A stretch of 64,000 nt of DNA. Source: Sporosarcina ureae DSM 2281 (GTDB lineage Bacteria; Bacillota; Bacilli; Bacillales_A; Planococcaceae). Every line of letters begins with the position of its first letter. The stretch's first letter is position 1. Shown piece after piece: positions 5,082-12,331 of the stretch. Position numbers and translations under genes: made by a program. The stretch spans positions 62,001 through 126,000 of the forward strand of contig NZ_AUDQ01000002.1 of assembly GCF_000425545.1 (NCBI RefSeq). The letters are read 5' to 3'. The notes beneath the pieces were generated by a model that was given only the letters and a program-made list of their open reading frames with translations, had not been told where the DNA came from and did not search any database.

Positions 5082-6989
5082 ATGAAAATCACACAATTAT
5101 TGACAGAGGACACAATCAATCTTCATTTGCAGTCTAGGTCGAAGGATGCGGTCTTATCTGAACTGGTTCAGCAGTTACATGATGCAGGGAAATTACGTGA
5201 CAAAGAACAATTCACCAATGATATTCTGAATCGGGAAAGTCAAAGTACGACGGGTATTGGTGAAGGAATCGCTATTCCACACGCGAAGTCAGCTGCTGTT
5301 CAGACGCCTGCTATCGCGTTTGGGCGTTCTATTGAAGGTATAGACTTTGACTCGCTTGACAGCCAACCGGCACATTTGTTTTTCATGATTGCAGCAAGCG
5401 AAGGAGCCAACGACGACCATTTAGATGCACTGTCTAGACTTGCGAAATTTTTGATGGATACTTCATTTCGTGAAAAAATCTTGTCAGCACAATCAGCAGC
5501 GGACGTATTGCAAGCAGTCAATGATAAAGAGTCGGAATTGGATGATGAAGTAACAGAAGAAGTACAAGCACCTAAAGAAGAGAAATCAACTGTACGTTTG
5601 CTAGCGGTTACGGCTTGTCCGACTGGTATTGCGCATACGTATATGGCTGCAGAAAAATTGAATGAGAGAGCAAAAGAACGTGGCCTTTCATTGAAAGTAG
5701 AAACGAACGGTTCATCCGGTGTGAAGAATAGATTAACAGATGCAGAAATTGCAGAAGCTGATGCCATAATTGTGGCAGCTGATACGAAAGTGGAGATGGC
5801 TCGATTCGCTGGAAAACATGTGATCCAGACGAAAGTCGGAGATGCTATCTATGAAACGGATGCATTACTGGATAGGGCAATTGAAAAAGATGCACCAATT
5901 TATCAGCTGGAAAAAGGTCAGGAAGATACTTCATCGAGTGAAAAGAAGAGTGGTTTTTATAAGCATTTGATGAACGGCGTATCAAATATGCTACCATTCG
6001 TTGTCGGTGGAGGGATTTTGATAGCGCTCTCTTTCTTCTGGGGAATCGAATCGTCTAATCCAGACAGTCCTGAATATAATGCCTTTGCAGCTATGCTTAA
6101 CACTATAGGCGGCGGAAAAGCATTCTTCCTCATGGTTCCTGTGTTGGCTGGCTTCATAGCTTCAAGCATAGCTGATCGACCTGGTTTTGCTCCCGGTATG
6201 ATAGGGGGTCTGATTGCCATCACGGTTTCAGGTGTAGATGAAGTGGGTGGCGGTTCAGGGTTTTTAGGCGGTCTTATTGCAGGGTTTTTAGCAGGGTATA
6301 TCACTTTACTTGTTAAGAAATTATTTGCTCGTTTACCTAATTCATTAGAAGGCTTAAAACCCGTGCTGTTTTATCCGGTTTTCAGTATTGCAGCGACAGG
6401 AATAATTATGTTGCTTATCAATCCACAATTGGCCAAGCTATACACTGGATTTTCCGCTTTCCTTGAAGGGATGGGCGGTACGAATCAAATTTTAGTTGGT
6501 TTAGTTATTGGTGGAATGATGGCTGTGGATATGGGTGGACCGGTCAATAAAGCGGCATACACATTCGGTATTGCCATGCTAGATGCACAGAATTTCCAAT
6601 TTATCGCAGCAGTAATGGCAGGTGGGATGGTACCACCGCTTGGTATGGCGATCGCGACAACGTTATTTAAAAATCGTTATACAAAGACAGAGCGTGAAGC
6701 AGGGAAAACGGCGTATGTGCTCGGTGCCTGCTTCATAACGGAAGGTGTTATTCCGTTTGCAGCAGCTGATCCATTGCGTGTCATTCCGGCTTCCGTAATA
6801 GGGGCAGCGACAGCAGGTGCACTAACGATGGCATTTGATATCGCCTTACGCGCACCACACGGAGGAATCTTCGTCATGGGACTCGTTGAAGGTGGAATCA
6901 GTAAAATTCTACTGTATGCACTTGCAATAATTATTGGTTCTGTTATTACAGGCTTAATTGCCGGCATGTTGCGTAAGAAGCCTGCTTGA
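5082..6989 (+). CDS. fruA: PTS fructose transporter EIIABC
   Basis: A single 635-residue chain imports fructose and phosphorylates it at C1. The EIIA domain (about 1-145) has the phospho-His67 in GIAIPHAK. The EIIB domain (about 170-270) has the phospho-Cys179 in TACPTGIAHTYMAAE. The C-terminal EIIC domain (about 285-630) is hydrophobic, with several membrane segments and the substrate-site region PHGGIFVMG. Length and domain order match B. subtilis FruA. A strong terminator closes the operon. Confidence 0.96.
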   Translation: MKITQLLTEDTINLHLQSRSKDAVLSELVQQLHDAGKLRDKEQFTNDILNRESQSTTGIGEGIAIPHAKSAAVQTPAIAFGRSIEGIDFDSLDSQPAHLFFMIAASEGANDDHLDALSRLAKFLMDTSFREKILSAQSAADVLQAVNDKESELDDEVTEEVQAPKEEKSTVRLLAVTACPTGIAHTYMAAEKLNERAKERGLSLKVETNGSSGVKNRLTDAEIAEADAIIVAADTKVEMARFAGKHVIQTKVGDAIYETDALLDRAIEKDAPIYQLEKGQEDTSSSEKKSGFYKHLMNGVSNMLPFVVGGGILIALSFFWGIESSNPDSPEYNAFAAMLNTIGGGKAFFLMVPVLAGFIASSIADRPGFAPGMIGGLIAITVSGVDEVGGGSGFLGGLIAGFLAGYITLLVKKLFARLPNSLEGLKPVLFYPVFSIAATGIIMLLINPQLAKLYTGFSAFLEGMGGTNQILVGLVIGGMMAVDMGGPVNKAAYTFGIAMLDAQNFQFIAAVMAGGMVPPLGMAIATTLFKNRYTKTEREAGKTAYVLGACFITEGVIPFAAADPLRVIPASVIGAATAGALTMAFDIALRAPHGGIFVMGLVEGGISKILLYALAIIIGSVITGLIAGMLRKKPA

Positions 6990-9050: not shown

Positions 9051-10214
9051 TTACATAGCGGTCTGCCGAGTCTTTACAGCCATCGATAAAGAGATCGCGG
9101 CACATAAGAATGCGATTATCACAATTACGCCACCAACTGCCGGCATATTTGTTACATTGCCTGTTTGACTAAAGACTACCCCGCCAACTCCAGATCCAAG
9201 CGCAATCCCGACTTGTAGCGCCGAGTTATTGAAACTCTGGTGCACATCGGAAGTTACCGAATCACTTTGGATAATATAATCTTGCTGAGCAGGTGCTAGA
9301 GCCCAGCTTAATCCACCCCAAATCATCATGAAGATAATGAAAAGTGGAATGGAGAATGTCGAATAGGGAAGTGCAAATAAACTAATTGCAAATGCCCCTA
9401 ATATGATTAAAATGCTTCTCTTCGAGCCAAGCCGTGAAGCTAGTCCGCCACCAAATGCCCCGCCTGCTACTGCTGCAAGTCCAAATAGGAAGTAGAATAC
9501 ACTGATCCAATAAGGGCTTAACTTCATCGTAGTCTCTAGGAAGGGGGTGAAATACGCATATACCGTATAATGTCCCGCGAGCATAAACATGGTCGCTAAA
9601 TGAGCGAAAAATATCTTCTTATTAGCTAAAGCTTTAAGTTGAACGGACAATGGTTGCACTTTCGCGTTCGGTATTTTTTCGAGAAACTTTGCAATCAATA
9701 CAATAGAACCTACTGTCAAGATTGCAATTCCTAAAAACACTGAACGCCATCCGAATGCGTTCGTTACTACAATCCCAATGGGTACCCCTAGAACAAGCGA
9801 TGAGCTGATTCCCATGTATATATAGCCAAGCGACTTAGCTCTAACACGCGGCTCGACCATTCGTGCTGTAATCGTTAACGACAGCACAATGACGAGTGCT
9901 GCACTTGCAGCTGTCAAGACACGAGCAGCCATCATCAAGCCGAATGTCGGACTGAAGTACGTTAGGATGTTTCCAAGTAAGAATACGACCAAAGTAATCA
10001 AATATAATTTCTTGCGTTCCACTTTCGCGGTCAGTGACAATAATACAGGTCCTGCTACCGCGTAGACGAGAGCGAATACTGTAATGAGTTGTCCAGCCGT
10101 TGCGATTGAAACATTCAAATCATCAGCAATGACGGGCAAAATCCCGCCGACTACCAATTCTACCAGTCCTACCGTAACGGCGGATACTGCCAATAATAAA
10201 ACACGTAAATCCAA
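9051..10214 (-). CDS. pbuE: Purine efflux pump of the MFS family
   Basis: PbuE exports purine bases and nucleosides such as adenine and hypoxanthine. The 387-residue protein has twelve membrane segments typical of the DHA1/AraJ branch, beginning with SAVTVGLVELVVGGILPVIA; B. subtilis PbuE is almost the same length. The assignment rests mainly on the leader: an adenine riboswitch of pbuE type ends 45 bases upstream of the start. Adenine should therefore turn the gene on by preventing termination. Confidence 0.92.
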   Translation of the reverse strand: MDLRVLLLAVSAVTVGLVELVVGGILPVIADDLNVSIATAGQLITVFALVYAVAGPVLLSLTAKVERKKLYLITLVVFLLGNILTYFSPTFGLMMAARVLTAASAALVIVLSLTITARMVEPRVRAKSLGYIYMGISSSLVLGVPIGIVVTNAFGWRSVFLGIAILTVGSIVLIAKFLEKIPNAKVQPLSVQLKALANKKIFFAHLATMFMLAGHYTVYAYFTPFLETTMKLSPYWISVFYFLFGLAAVAGGAFGGGLASRLGSKRSILIILGAFAISLFALPYSTFSIPLFIIFMMIWGGLSWALAPAQQDYIIQSDSVTSDVHQSFNNSALQVGIALGSGVGGVVFSQTGNVTNMPAVGGVIVIIAFLCAAISLSMAVKTRQTAM

Positions 10215-10258: not shown

Positions 10259-10347
10259 AAAAATCCCGATTACAAAAATGATTTTGTAATCAGGATTTGA
10301 CGGTTCCTGGTAGAGACCCTCGAACCATATTATCGAGGTTATACATG
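10259..10347 (-). promoter_or_regulatory. Adenine riboswitch (purine aptamer plus terminator)
   Basis: Read on the minus strand the aptamer has TGTATAACCTCGATAATATG, then TCTACCAGGAACCG, then CCTGATTACA, which matches the purine aptamer with P2 and P3 arms and loop sequences. The ligand-contact base is U (GATTAC, opposite A10289), the adenine form; guanine aptamers have C there. The 3' half of the aptamer also forms a terminator stem (ATCCTGATTACAAAA with TTTTTGTAATCGGGAT) before a T-run. This is an ON switch as in B. subtilis pbuE. Confidence 0.93.
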
Positions 10348-10582
10348 TTGATTCCGTAATGAAATTTTCTATTGTTCAATTTATCATGGAATGTGAAATA
10401 TGGCAAGTTGGATAGCAGGTTATTTATAAAAAATCTTGAATTTAACACATAGTGTAAAAGTTATATTCATTCTGCTCCATAATCTGGTTCGAATAGTCTC
10501 AAGTTGTAAAAGACATCATAATCAAGTATACTTTTCCCGATAAACCTGTGCGGATCAATACAATAATAAAGGATGGATATAC

Positions 10583-10804
10583 ATGACATTTGAAGAAATA
10601 TTGCCACGCTTGAAGGCTGGAGAGAAAGTCATACGCAGTAACTGGGGTGGAGCGGAATTATACGTGAAGCTAGTAGGAGAAAGCGAACAAGATGGTAAAA
10701 AGCTAAATCCATATTTCGTGATTGATGTAACGGGTGAAGGCTATACCATGTTCACACCAACAGTTTGCGACTTACTAGCTGAAGACTGGGTCATCGTAGA
10801 GTAA
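10583..10804 (+). CDS. DUF2829 (Tad2-like) domain protein
   Basis: The 73-residue protein starts MTFEEILPRLKAGEKVIRSN and ends with TPTVCDLLAEDWVIVE. This is the DUF2829 pattern: N-terminal helix, K/R-x-x-W, PYFVIDV strand and a C-terminal LLAEDW motif. Members of this family include Tad2, a phage protein that sequesters the cyclic ADP-ribose-type signal of Thoeris defence. Most members are in phages, but no phage gene is seen here. It has its own terminator; the ribosome binding site AAAGGATGG is adequate. Whether it binds a nucleotide signal is inference. Confidence 0.75.
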   Translation: MTFEEILPRLKAGEKVIRSNWGGAELYVKLVGESEQDGKKLNPYFVIDVTGEGYTMFTPTVCDLLAEDWVIVE

Positions 10805-10817
10805 ATCGGAAGAATCC

Positions 10818-10845
10818 AAGCTCATGAGAATTCATGAGCTTTTTT
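10818..10845 (+). terminator. Terminator of the DUF2829 gene
   Basis: AAGCTCATGA and TCATGAGCTT pair around GAAT and are followed by TTTTT. Confidence 0.9.
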
Positions 10846-10860
10846 ATGTGGGAGGCTATT

Positions 10861-11616
10861 ATGAAATTTGCAGAATATGAAAAAAAGACAGTCGTAGTGA
10901 CAGGTGGTGCGTCTGGTATTGGGTACGCACAGGCAGTGGCGTTTTTAGAAAATGGAGCGAATGTCTTTGCGCTTGATATAAACGAAGGGAATCTTAGAAA
11001 ATTGCAACAGGAGTATCCGTCACAGTTTGCCTATGCGATTGGAAGTGTCAGTGCAAAGGACGAAGTAGCACACGCTGTCAAAGAAGCATGTAACGTGTTT
11101 GGTACAATAGATATTTTACTAAACACAGCAGGGGTGCTCGATGGTTTTGCAAAAACTCTAGACACTGATGAAGCGCTTTGGGATACAATCATGGATACGA
11201 ATGTGAAAGGTACATACTTTATGACGAATGAAGTATTGCCACATATGATCGCTCGAAAGTCAGGTGTCATTGTCAATATGGCATCCATTGCAGGACTTGT
11301 GGCAGGCGGTGGCGGTGCAGCTTATACTGCATCCAAACATGCCATTGTCGGTTATACAAAGCAACTGGACATGGATTACTGCCGAGAGGGGATTCGTGCG
11401 AATGCAATTGCACCAGGCGCGATCCAGACCCCGATGAACAAGGCGGATTTTGAAGGCGATGGTGAAATGGCGAAGTGGGTAGCGGAAGAAACGCCTGCAG
11501 GTCGATGGGCGCAGCCGAGTGAGGTTGCAAGCCTGACATTATACGTAGCCAGTTCCGCAGCGGATTATATTCATGGAGCGGTTATTCCGATTGACGGAGG
11601 TTGGATTGCAAAATAA
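10861..11616 (+). CDS. Short-chain dehydrogenase/reductase, FabG-like
   Basis: The protein has the classic SDR layout: nucleotide site TGGASGIG near the N-terminus, DINEG after the second strand, NTAGV, catalytic Ser in MASIAG, the YTASK pair (Tyr and Lys) and the C-terminal IDGGW. An acidic residue after strand two favours NAD(H). The start is ATG 10861 behind GGGAGG; an in-frame ATG at 10834 lies inside the preceding terminator and is unlikely. Length 251 is normal. The substrate cannot be read from the sequence, and its neighbours do not help. Confidence 0.85.
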   Translation: MKFAEYEKKTVVVTGGASGIGYAQAVAFLENGANVFALDINEGNLRKLQQEYPSQFAYAIGSVSAKDEVAHAVKEACNVFGTIDILLNTAGVLDGFAKTLDTDEALWDTIMDTNVKGTYFMTNEVLPHMIARKSGVIVNMASIAGLVAGGGGAAYTASKHAIVGYTKQLDMDYCREGIRANAIAPGAIQTPMNKADFEGDGEMAKWVAEETPAGRWAQPSEVASLTLYVASSAADYIHGAVIPIDGGWIAK

Positions 11617-11648: not shown

Positions 11649-11687
11649 ACCGAAGCAAGCAAATTCTGTTTGCACTACGGCACTTTT

Positions 11688-11762
11688 GATCGAGCGATAG
11701 GCTCTTTCTTCCTTTGGTCGTAGTTATTACTGGAATAGCAATTGTGCTATTTCACAAAGGAG
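11688..11762 (+). promoter_or_regulatory. preQ1-II-like riboswitch candidate before queT
   Basis: The leader folds as GATC (11688) with GGTC (11716) enclosing a GAGC/GCTC hairpin and a pyrimidine-rich loop. A TTATTAC linker follows, then a nine-pair hairpin (11732-11753), and then the ribosome binding site CAAAGGAG. TCCTTTG at 11710-11716 is complementary to CAAAGGA at 11755-11761, so a pseudoknot would hide the ribosome binding site. This arrangement, and the position before a COG4708/QueT gene, fits the preQ1-II class. The extra hairpin is a deviation. Confidence 0.5.
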
Positions 11763-11770
11763 AAAATAAA

Positions 11771-12286
11771 ATGAGTATGTCTTATGTTAAGGATTCACCT
11801 AAGAGTAAGAGTACGGTGAATGAACTGACAAAAACAGCGCTCGTCGCAGCTTTGTATGTGGCGGTGACGTTTGTCTTTGCAGTGATTAGTTTTGGCGCAG
11901 TCCAACTGCGTTTGTCAGAGATGTTCAACTATCTGGCTTTGTATAATAAAAGGTATGTGATCGGTGTCACACTAGGTGTCATGTTCGCAAACTTTATGTC
12001 TCCCACTTGGATATTGGATGTGCCGATTGGTTCGATGGCTACGTTAGTCGCGTTATTAATATGTCGTGCACTAACAAAGAAAATAAAAAACGATATCGTC
12101 AAAATGGTAATCACTGCTATTGTGTTTGCACTGTCCATGTGTGCCATTGCAGCCCAATTGACTATTATGCTTGGTTTCCCGTTCTGGGCTACTTGGCTGA
12201 CAGCTGGAATTGGCGAGTTGTTATCCATGACAATTGGCGGAATCATTATATACTCGTTGAATAAGAAAATAGATTTGTCCAAATAA
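11771..12286 (+). CDS. queT: Queuosine-precursor transporter QueT (ECF S component)
   Basis: QueT is the membrane substrate-binding subunit that lets an ECF transporter take up preQ1 or preQ0 for queuosine synthesis. The 171-residue protein has about five hydrophobic segments after a short polar N-terminus, and family signatures such as VQLRLSEMFNYLALYNKRY and GTSNIQ-like loop residues around DVPIGSMATL. The start is ATG 11771 behind AAAGGAG, not the upstream in-frame codon at 11714 inside the leader. The leader looks like a preQ1-II riboswitch. The shared energising EcfAAT subunits are not in the window. Confidence 0.85.
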   Translation: MSMSYVKDSPKSKSTVNELTKTALVAALYVAVTFVFAVISFGAVQLRLSEMFNYLALYNKRYVIGVTLGVMFANFMSPTWILDVPIGSMATLVALLICRALTKKIKNDIVKMVITAIVFALSMCAIAAQLTIMLGFPFWATWLTAGIGELLSMTIGGIIIYSLNKKIDLSK

Positions 12287-12331
12287 AAGAGAGCATATTC
12301 GCAGATTTTGTGAATATGCTCTCTTTCTTCT
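12287..12331. terminator. Terminator after queT
   Basis: AAGAGAGCATATTC pairs exactly with GAATATGCTCTCTT around an 11-base loop and is followed by a T-rich tail. It may also serve the convergent membrane-protein gene. Confidence 0.9.

Follow-up and report, generated by a model that had tools for sequence, protein, structure and literature searches.

We found that the Tad2-like (DUF2829) gene at positions 10583-10804 (+ strand) of the window, by which we mean the whole 64,000-nucleotide stretch of Sporosarcina ureae DSM 2281 that was analysed, belongs to a chromosomal branch of its family and is paired with an adjoining short-chain dehydrogenase (SDR) gene. It is rather likely that the encoded protein, which has the predicted Tad2 fold, serves the metabolism of the host and acts jointly with this SDR, and the protein is probably not an anti-Thoeris protein today. 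Since the gene is a strongly conserved host gene and travels with one dehydrogenase gene, a role in metabolism is probable rather than one against phage defences.

The reading frame starts with an ATG behind a Shine-Dalgarno-like AAAGGATGG, and its 73-aa product scored 78.9 bits against PF11195 (Tad2-like; E 4.3e-22), well above the membership cut-off of 25. No other PF11195 match was present in the genome of 3,318,653 bases. Upstream lies a promoter-like TTGTAA-17-TATACT (10504-10532, + strand), a weak candidate from a consensus scan that returned 11 promoter-like sites versus 6.3 in shuffles. The nearest GTDB relatives, with 99% protein identity, were found in Sporosarcina sp. P32b, an S. 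ureae MAG and Sporosarcina sp. P2. When the PDB was searched with phmmer, phage Tad2 proteins ranked first, the best of these being ModTad2 (8v3e, 9eib; E about 5e-7). A single-chain AlphaFold model built from 73 sequences reached a pLDDT of 96.6, and the top 24 Foldseek matches in the PDB were all Tad2 or HgmTad2/AcrIIA7 chains, with TM values of at most 0.89 (8v3e_B). VIA-align superposed 73 residues on 8v3e_B with a Z of 12.3 and an rmsd of 1.9; matches outside Tad2 were weak, with Z 6.3 (phage 812 neck protein) and lower. Given that all top 24 matches are of the Tad2 type and that VIA-align gave this Z, the predicted fold of the DUF2829 protein is that of Tad2, and the preliminary description was right to regard the frame as a real Tad2-like gene. 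Two published proteomics studies detected DUF2829 proteins, whether SDR-linked or not, in Streptococcus suis and Enterococcus faecalis (PMC8125046, PMC10533825).

That no phage genes surround the gene, as had also been described, was borne out by a scan of 19 neighbouring proteins at about 1.3-23.5 kb of the window (9 + 10 of them, rather than all ORFs; a PTS-like ORF at 5082-6989 lay outside this set), none of which matched phage structural or integration families above cut-off. With these 19 neighbours free of phage families and a chromosomal gene order that is the same across genera, we saw no sign that the gene is carried by a phage or prophage. Ten IMG/VR contigs (L031-L040) have the DUF2829 gene at or near a contig end, with an integrase directly upstream in nine of them (two Pfam-tested), and the SDR follows where the contig is long enough (L032, L034 and L037). 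Because of the integrase beside the gene and the SDR downstream, these 'viral' copies look like host flank, alongside which prophages seem to insert. An unverified 'Listeria phage' contig (L151, OR848486.1) bears the DUF2829-SDR pair, and in a Klebsiella plasmid record (L152, CP069369.1) DUF2829 is followed by an SDR that matches in part and by QueT, as in Bacilli; both are probably mis-assigned Bacilli DNA.

The gene had been thought to stand alone, which turned out not to be so: an SDR gene adjoins it on the same strand (10861-11616, ATG at 10861), and 79 of the 80 closest GTDB loci share this order. Its 251-aa product scored 345.3 bits against NF005118/PRK06550 (cut-off 270), and a structural model of it had a pLDDT of 94.2. 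The name of that family, '3-oxoacyl-ACP reductase', is doubtful here because the FabG model TIGR01830 gave 175.3 bits against its cut-off of 297.75, and a FabG function is not supported. The catalytic Asn-Ser-Tyr-Lys set is present, with S147, Y160 and K164 in all 128 aligned sequences and N119 in 125 of them (numbers follow an ORF five residues longer than the 251-aa protein). The Asp after strand beta2 is conserved, and catalytic and cofactor residues together are kept in 125-128 of the 128 sequences. In SDRs generally, an Asp at this place goes with a preference for NAD. The solved SDRs closest in fold were 2-(R)-hydroxypropyl-CoM dehydrogenase, BacC and 2,3-butanediol dehydrogenase, at 33-36% identity; since these were tied in Z with many others, the fold search is too general to name a substrate. 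Neither a Tad2-like partner of an NF005118 SDR nor a DUF2829-SDR pair was described in the literature searched, most subscription papers lying outside it.

A scan of GTDB species genomes returned 294 relatives of the DUF2829 protein. Among the best 80 of these 294, which were examined, the SDR lies downstream on the same strand in the 79 loci mentioned above, within 350 bases in 77, and a QueT gene comes after the SDR in 72. Genes farther out vary widely among loci and show no common substrate theme, while the DUF2829-SDR pair stays. As GTDB loci and collection genomes overlap, some loci were counted twice; the number of distinct SDR-linked DUF2829 sequences is 101. Abutting or overlapping frames are common in Enterococcus, in related genera and in a genus taken for Streptococcus, and in a Latilactobacillus curvatus plasmid record the two genes are annotated with a 1-base overlap.

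The pair is also present or missing as a unit. Among 68 genomes of the genus, PF11195 was found in 34 and the SDR above cut-off in 32, and in all 32 the DUF2829 gene lies on the same contig and strand as the SDR, mostly with a spacer of less than 100 bases. Longer spacers, from a few hundred bases to 4 kb, occur in four genomes (G004, G012, G039 and G044); in G039 (L205) transposase-type genes and at least two others separate DUF2829 from the SDR by about 4 kb, with both frames still open. The two genomes with PF11195 and no SDR are G020, which has a phage-type sequence, and G057, a MAG in which the DUF2829 gene is a truncated remnant (L195; likewise L097) whose frame breaks off ahead of the conserved C-terminal motif and in which no SDR turned up, an apparent joint loss of the pair that could in part be sequencing error. 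Setting aside phage-type copies and the G057 remnant, the two genes are jointly present or jointly absent in 68 of 68 genomes of the genus.

This pattern extended to 398 Bacilli genomes, where PF11195 was present in 53 and the SDR in 42, all 42 of them among the 53. The 11 remaining PF11195 genomes carry phage types or a third type, and by eye none has the chromosomal signature. This divergent third type (MNIQEATKLA...WQPSADDLMADDWEV and similar; L197-L202) occurs without the SDR in five genomes of one genus, 2.2-2.6 Mb in size. Fisher tests of co-occurrence gave p 4e-20 for the genus, where G020 and G057 were scored as genomes without the short chromosomal-type gene, and p 6e-47 for the 398 Bacilli; as related genomes were treated as independent and 26 of the 42 Bacilli pair genomes belong to one genus, these values show the pattern and not its true weight. 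Lactococcus lactis was the sole one of 14 control genomes to match both families (by presence in the genome). Judged by gene order and gene content, DUF2829 and the SDR are linked, co-oriented and kept together across Bacillales and Lactobacillales.

We compared the protein with the phage Tad2 proteins of known structure (SPO1, 8smf; ModTad2, 8v3e/9eib; HgmTad2/AcrIIA7, 8kbi; SptTad2, 8wjd). PF11195 and the full-length fold are common to both, as are R18, W21, D63 and D68-W69; unlike the phage genes, the window gene is chromosomal, is paired with an SDR and sits in a genome without a TIR match. According to a review, the loops beta1-beta2 and beta3-beta4 form the gcADPR pocket together with strand beta4 and helix alpha3, and cyclic dinucleotides are held by an insertion between beta2 and beta5 (PMC12043709). 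The phage loop reads W-N-G-K-x-M, whereas most chromosomal members have W-[G/S]-G-[A/F]-E-L instead, and in an alignment of sequences rather than coordinates the phage version was not seen in the chromosomal clade. Of 107 chromosomal sequences, one has N22 and none has K24 or M26, whereas 13, 12 and 12 of 14 phage-type sequences carry these three residues, respectively. Conversely, E25 and C62 are present in 107 of 107 chromosomal sequences and together in 0 of the 14 phage-type sequences, one of which has E25 and one C62. Between positions 31 and 44 the chromosomal type has 12-14 residues versus 22-35 in 11 of the 14 phage types (the other three are short too), and in the window protein this stretch is short, with no sign of the beta2-beta5 insertion. 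The beta1-beta2 ligand loop thus aligns as rebuilt, relative to phage Tad2, across the whole chromosomal clade. In the pocket comparison with Tad2 that had been proposed earlier, the phage loop residues were thus found replaced, and the suggestion of a DUF2829 member with another ligand came nearest to our findings in that the pocket loop is changed clade-wide, although it missed the SDR partner that defines the branch.

In a phylogenetic tree, from which L042 and the broken frames L040 and L097 were excluded, the 107 chromosomal sequences formed one clade apart from the phage types (local support 0.936). Because SPO1 Tad2 served as an arbitrary root, the tree does not give the direction between phage and host, and from the sequences a phage gene is a possible remote origin of the chromosomal branch. 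Median dN/dS was 0.011 for DUF2829 (8 pairs), 0.082 for the SDR (12 pairs) and 0.036 for queT (8 pairs), values from few pairs, some of them matching a genome with its own copy in a second collection and some close to synonymous saturation. Very low dN/dS together with near-invariant residues points to strong purifying selection, as in a conserved gene of the cell rather than one engaged in an arms race.

The gene had also been credited with a terminator of its own. A terminator-like hairpin with a U-run is indeed present at 10818-10841 (+ strand; 10-pair stem, RNA fold z -2.56), but it sits inside the DUF2829-SDR pair, 8 nt before the GGGAGG ribosome-binding site of the SDR and 19 nt before its ATG. 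Hairpins with stems of 7 bp or longer occur in 49 of 54 distinct spacers 40-120 nt in length, and in 46 of the 49 a T-run goes with the hairpin; the stem sequences are many and varied, and the median folding z over the 54 is -3.5. Since the gap from the hairpin to the ribosome-binding site is too short to hold a promoter, SDR transcripts should have to pass the hairpin. Going by its sequence, the hairpin would probably set the ratio of the two messages and leave DUF2829 mRNA more abundant than SDR mRNA, and such a surplus is what a binder needed in excess would show. This argument does not apply to Lactobacillales with overlapping frames.

In the mechanism that we propose, the reshaped pocket of the DUF2829 protein would bind a small molecule, probably one that resembles a nucleotide or dinucleotide. 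For the SDR, this molecule would be substrate, product or effector; the DUF2829 protein would present, buffer or sense it. Conserved linkage may also reflect a shared pathway without contact between the proteins. In a bolder version, this old host branch of the Tad2 fold would provide an NAD-dependent dehydrogenase with an obligate subunit for handling its ligand, in a so far undescribed Bacillales/Lactobacillales pathway that may be connected with 7-deazaguanine (queuosine-precursor) salvage via the adjacent QueT under riboswitch control; taken as a whole, we offer this version as speculative and unlikely. We consider it unlikely, too, and slightly more so, that the 73-aa protein is a structural or regulatory subunit that stabilises or gates the SDR through direct binding and whose old pocket has ceased to take up a small molecule. 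Such a role would fit the obligate pairing, the abutting or overlapping frames and the loss of the phage-type loop residues. However, of 101 distinct clade sequences, 100 have W21, 100 have G23 and all 101 have E25, and this near or full invariance suggests that the pocket site is still in use.

Behind the SDR lies a gene for a QueT transporter (ECF S-component; 11771-12286, + strand; PF06177, 126.4 bits), and it is followed by a terminator-like hairpin with a 19-pair stem and a T-rich tail (12286-12326, + strand). From the leader and the start sequence, QueT likely starts at ATG 11771 and not at TTG 11714. The leader (11673-11763, + strand) has a predicted pseudoknot, derived from a 52-sequence alignment, that covers the QueT Shine-Dalgarno. 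The leader search pattern fitted 98 of 105 stretches (the window plus 104 loci); the other 7 did not fit it but look alike by eye. There were 80 distinct leaders, of which 52 were aligned and 28 left out as near-copies or, in four cases (L088, L091, L108 and L113), as seemingly miscut. With two helices and the pseudoknot, 96.3% of cells in the alignment were paired, and 15 of 22 pairs had changed on both sides. Cells with both-side changes numbered 100 versus 28.5 in shuffles, and the observed value was reached by 0 of 500 shuffles on four of five measures and by 4 of 500 on the fifth (further pair types), the structure having been derived from the same aligned sequences, so that slid controls favour it. 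The covariation sits in the two other helices, and the pseudoknot pairs hardly vary.

Rfam at gathering scores showed no preQ1 element in 20 + 12 pair-linked loci, and we had considered that pair-linked QueT might be free of preQ1 control; this idea was rejected when looser Rfam scans and the alignment revealed a preQ1-II-like leader. Sub-threshold matches to RF01054 were found in L111, L115, L119, L121, L136 and L139, and weakly in L131, the best score among the loci tested being 44.1 against a gathering score of 47 bits (L111), and the window's own leader gave no RF01054 match up to E 2. The window leader resembles the preQ1-II riboswitch in its pseudoknot with Shine-Dalgarno occlusion, its preceding hairpin and its position before queT, whereas leaders of the window type differ from it in scoring below the gathering threshold and in often having an extra hairpin. 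On its predicted pairing, the leader at 11673-11763 is preQ1-II-like. The window leader and its 79 further distinct relatives occur in Planococcaceae and Bacillaceae; the published range of preQ1-II is narrower, a review giving it as primarily Streptococcaceae and Lactococcus (PMC11625349).

All 68 genomes of the genus have QueT, whether they carry the pair or not, and in 25 loci of the genus taken for Streptococcus (two of them cut by contig ends) no QueT was seen in the roughly 3 kb on either side of the pair; these loci represent 25 of the 26 pair-bearing genomes of that genus among the 398 Bacilli. For both reasons QueT was discarded as an obligate third partner. QueC above cut-off was rarer in genomes of the genus with the pair, at 10 of 32 versus 30 of 36 without it (p 1.9e-5, with related genomes as independent), and this pattern hints at precursor supply. 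One could imagine that the pair processes a 7-deazaguanine imported by QueT, with the SDR oxidising it and the Tad2-fold protein holding the base. The position of QueT after the pair in most of the best 80 GTDB loci, the preQ1-II-like leader in the aligned loci and the more frequent lack of the de novo gene queC speak for such salvage, but we regard it as distinctly unlikely. The window genome possesses QueC, QueT is found irrespective of the pair and was not seen close to it in those 25 loci, and, having its own leader, it does not require co-transcription with the pair. Also, tgt, queA and queG were not recognised in a read-through of the neighbours of the pair.

The proposal that the protein buffers the cell against a Thoeris-type signal of its own did not survive the genome search that had been suggested for it. 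In the window genome we found no match to ThsB_TIR or TIR_2 (profiles found in 1 and 4 of 14 control genomes, respectively) and none to SMODS; the STALD profile matched neither the window genome nor any control genome. Among the 398 Bacilli, ThsB_TIR was present in 40, namely in 6 of 42 genomes with the pair versus 34 of 356 without it (p 0.41), and after removal of nine weak hits (E above 1e-5) in 1 of 42 versus 30 of 356 (p 0.23). In view of the missing TIR match and the missing association with ThsB, an anti-Thoeris or self-buffer function was rejected as the main reading, and it has no support beyond family and fold. A domesticated anti-Thoeris or anti-CBASS sponge that is still used in phage-host conflict would agree with the Tad2 fold and the Pfam family, with ModTad2, a His-ADPR binder (PMC13299392), as the closest solved relative. 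We nevertheless think this very improbable, as the genome has no TIR or SMODS match, the pair is not associated with ThsB, dN/dS is very low with near-invariant residues, and the linked partner is metabolic. Slightly less probable still is that the two genes are neighbours by inheritance only, with separate roles and held together by a shared promoter or drift, for although linkage by itself is never proof of common function, the pair persists between widely differing flanks and shows the joint presence and absence across the genus given above.

The favoured reading of a metabolic Tad2-fold protein that works with the SDR bears on annotation, because PF11195 is now named 'Thoeris anti-defense 2-like' and many of its chromosomal Bacillales and Lactobacillales members may be misread as anti-defence genes; a single GTDB scan returned 294 relatives, the best 80 of which were examined. 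The linked SDR offers a direct route to the ligand of a host Tad2-fold protein, and the case is amenable to study in lactic acid bacteria, as Lactococcus lactis matches both families. A further question is whether host nucleotide-binding proteins gave rise to phage sponges or phage sponges to the host proteins. If the protein were a ligand-handling subunit, phage sponges and a metabolic protein would be two branches of one nucleotide-binding family, which would bear on the origin of immune-evasion sponges.

Two further observations concern riboswitches. The genus has a second type of QueT, about 40% identical to the pair-linked QueT of the window and present in some 56 copies, with a preQ1-I riboswitch in 9 of 9 loci fetched (L186-L194), one of which (L188) also holds a group II intron match. 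In the window itself, a purine riboswitch (RF00167, 68.1 bits; L001 1185-1284) lies at 10267-10366 on the - strand, with a terminator-like hairpin at 10298-10261, and precedes an MFS transporter gene (9051-10214, - strand), an arrangement that we take to resemble the PbuE type.
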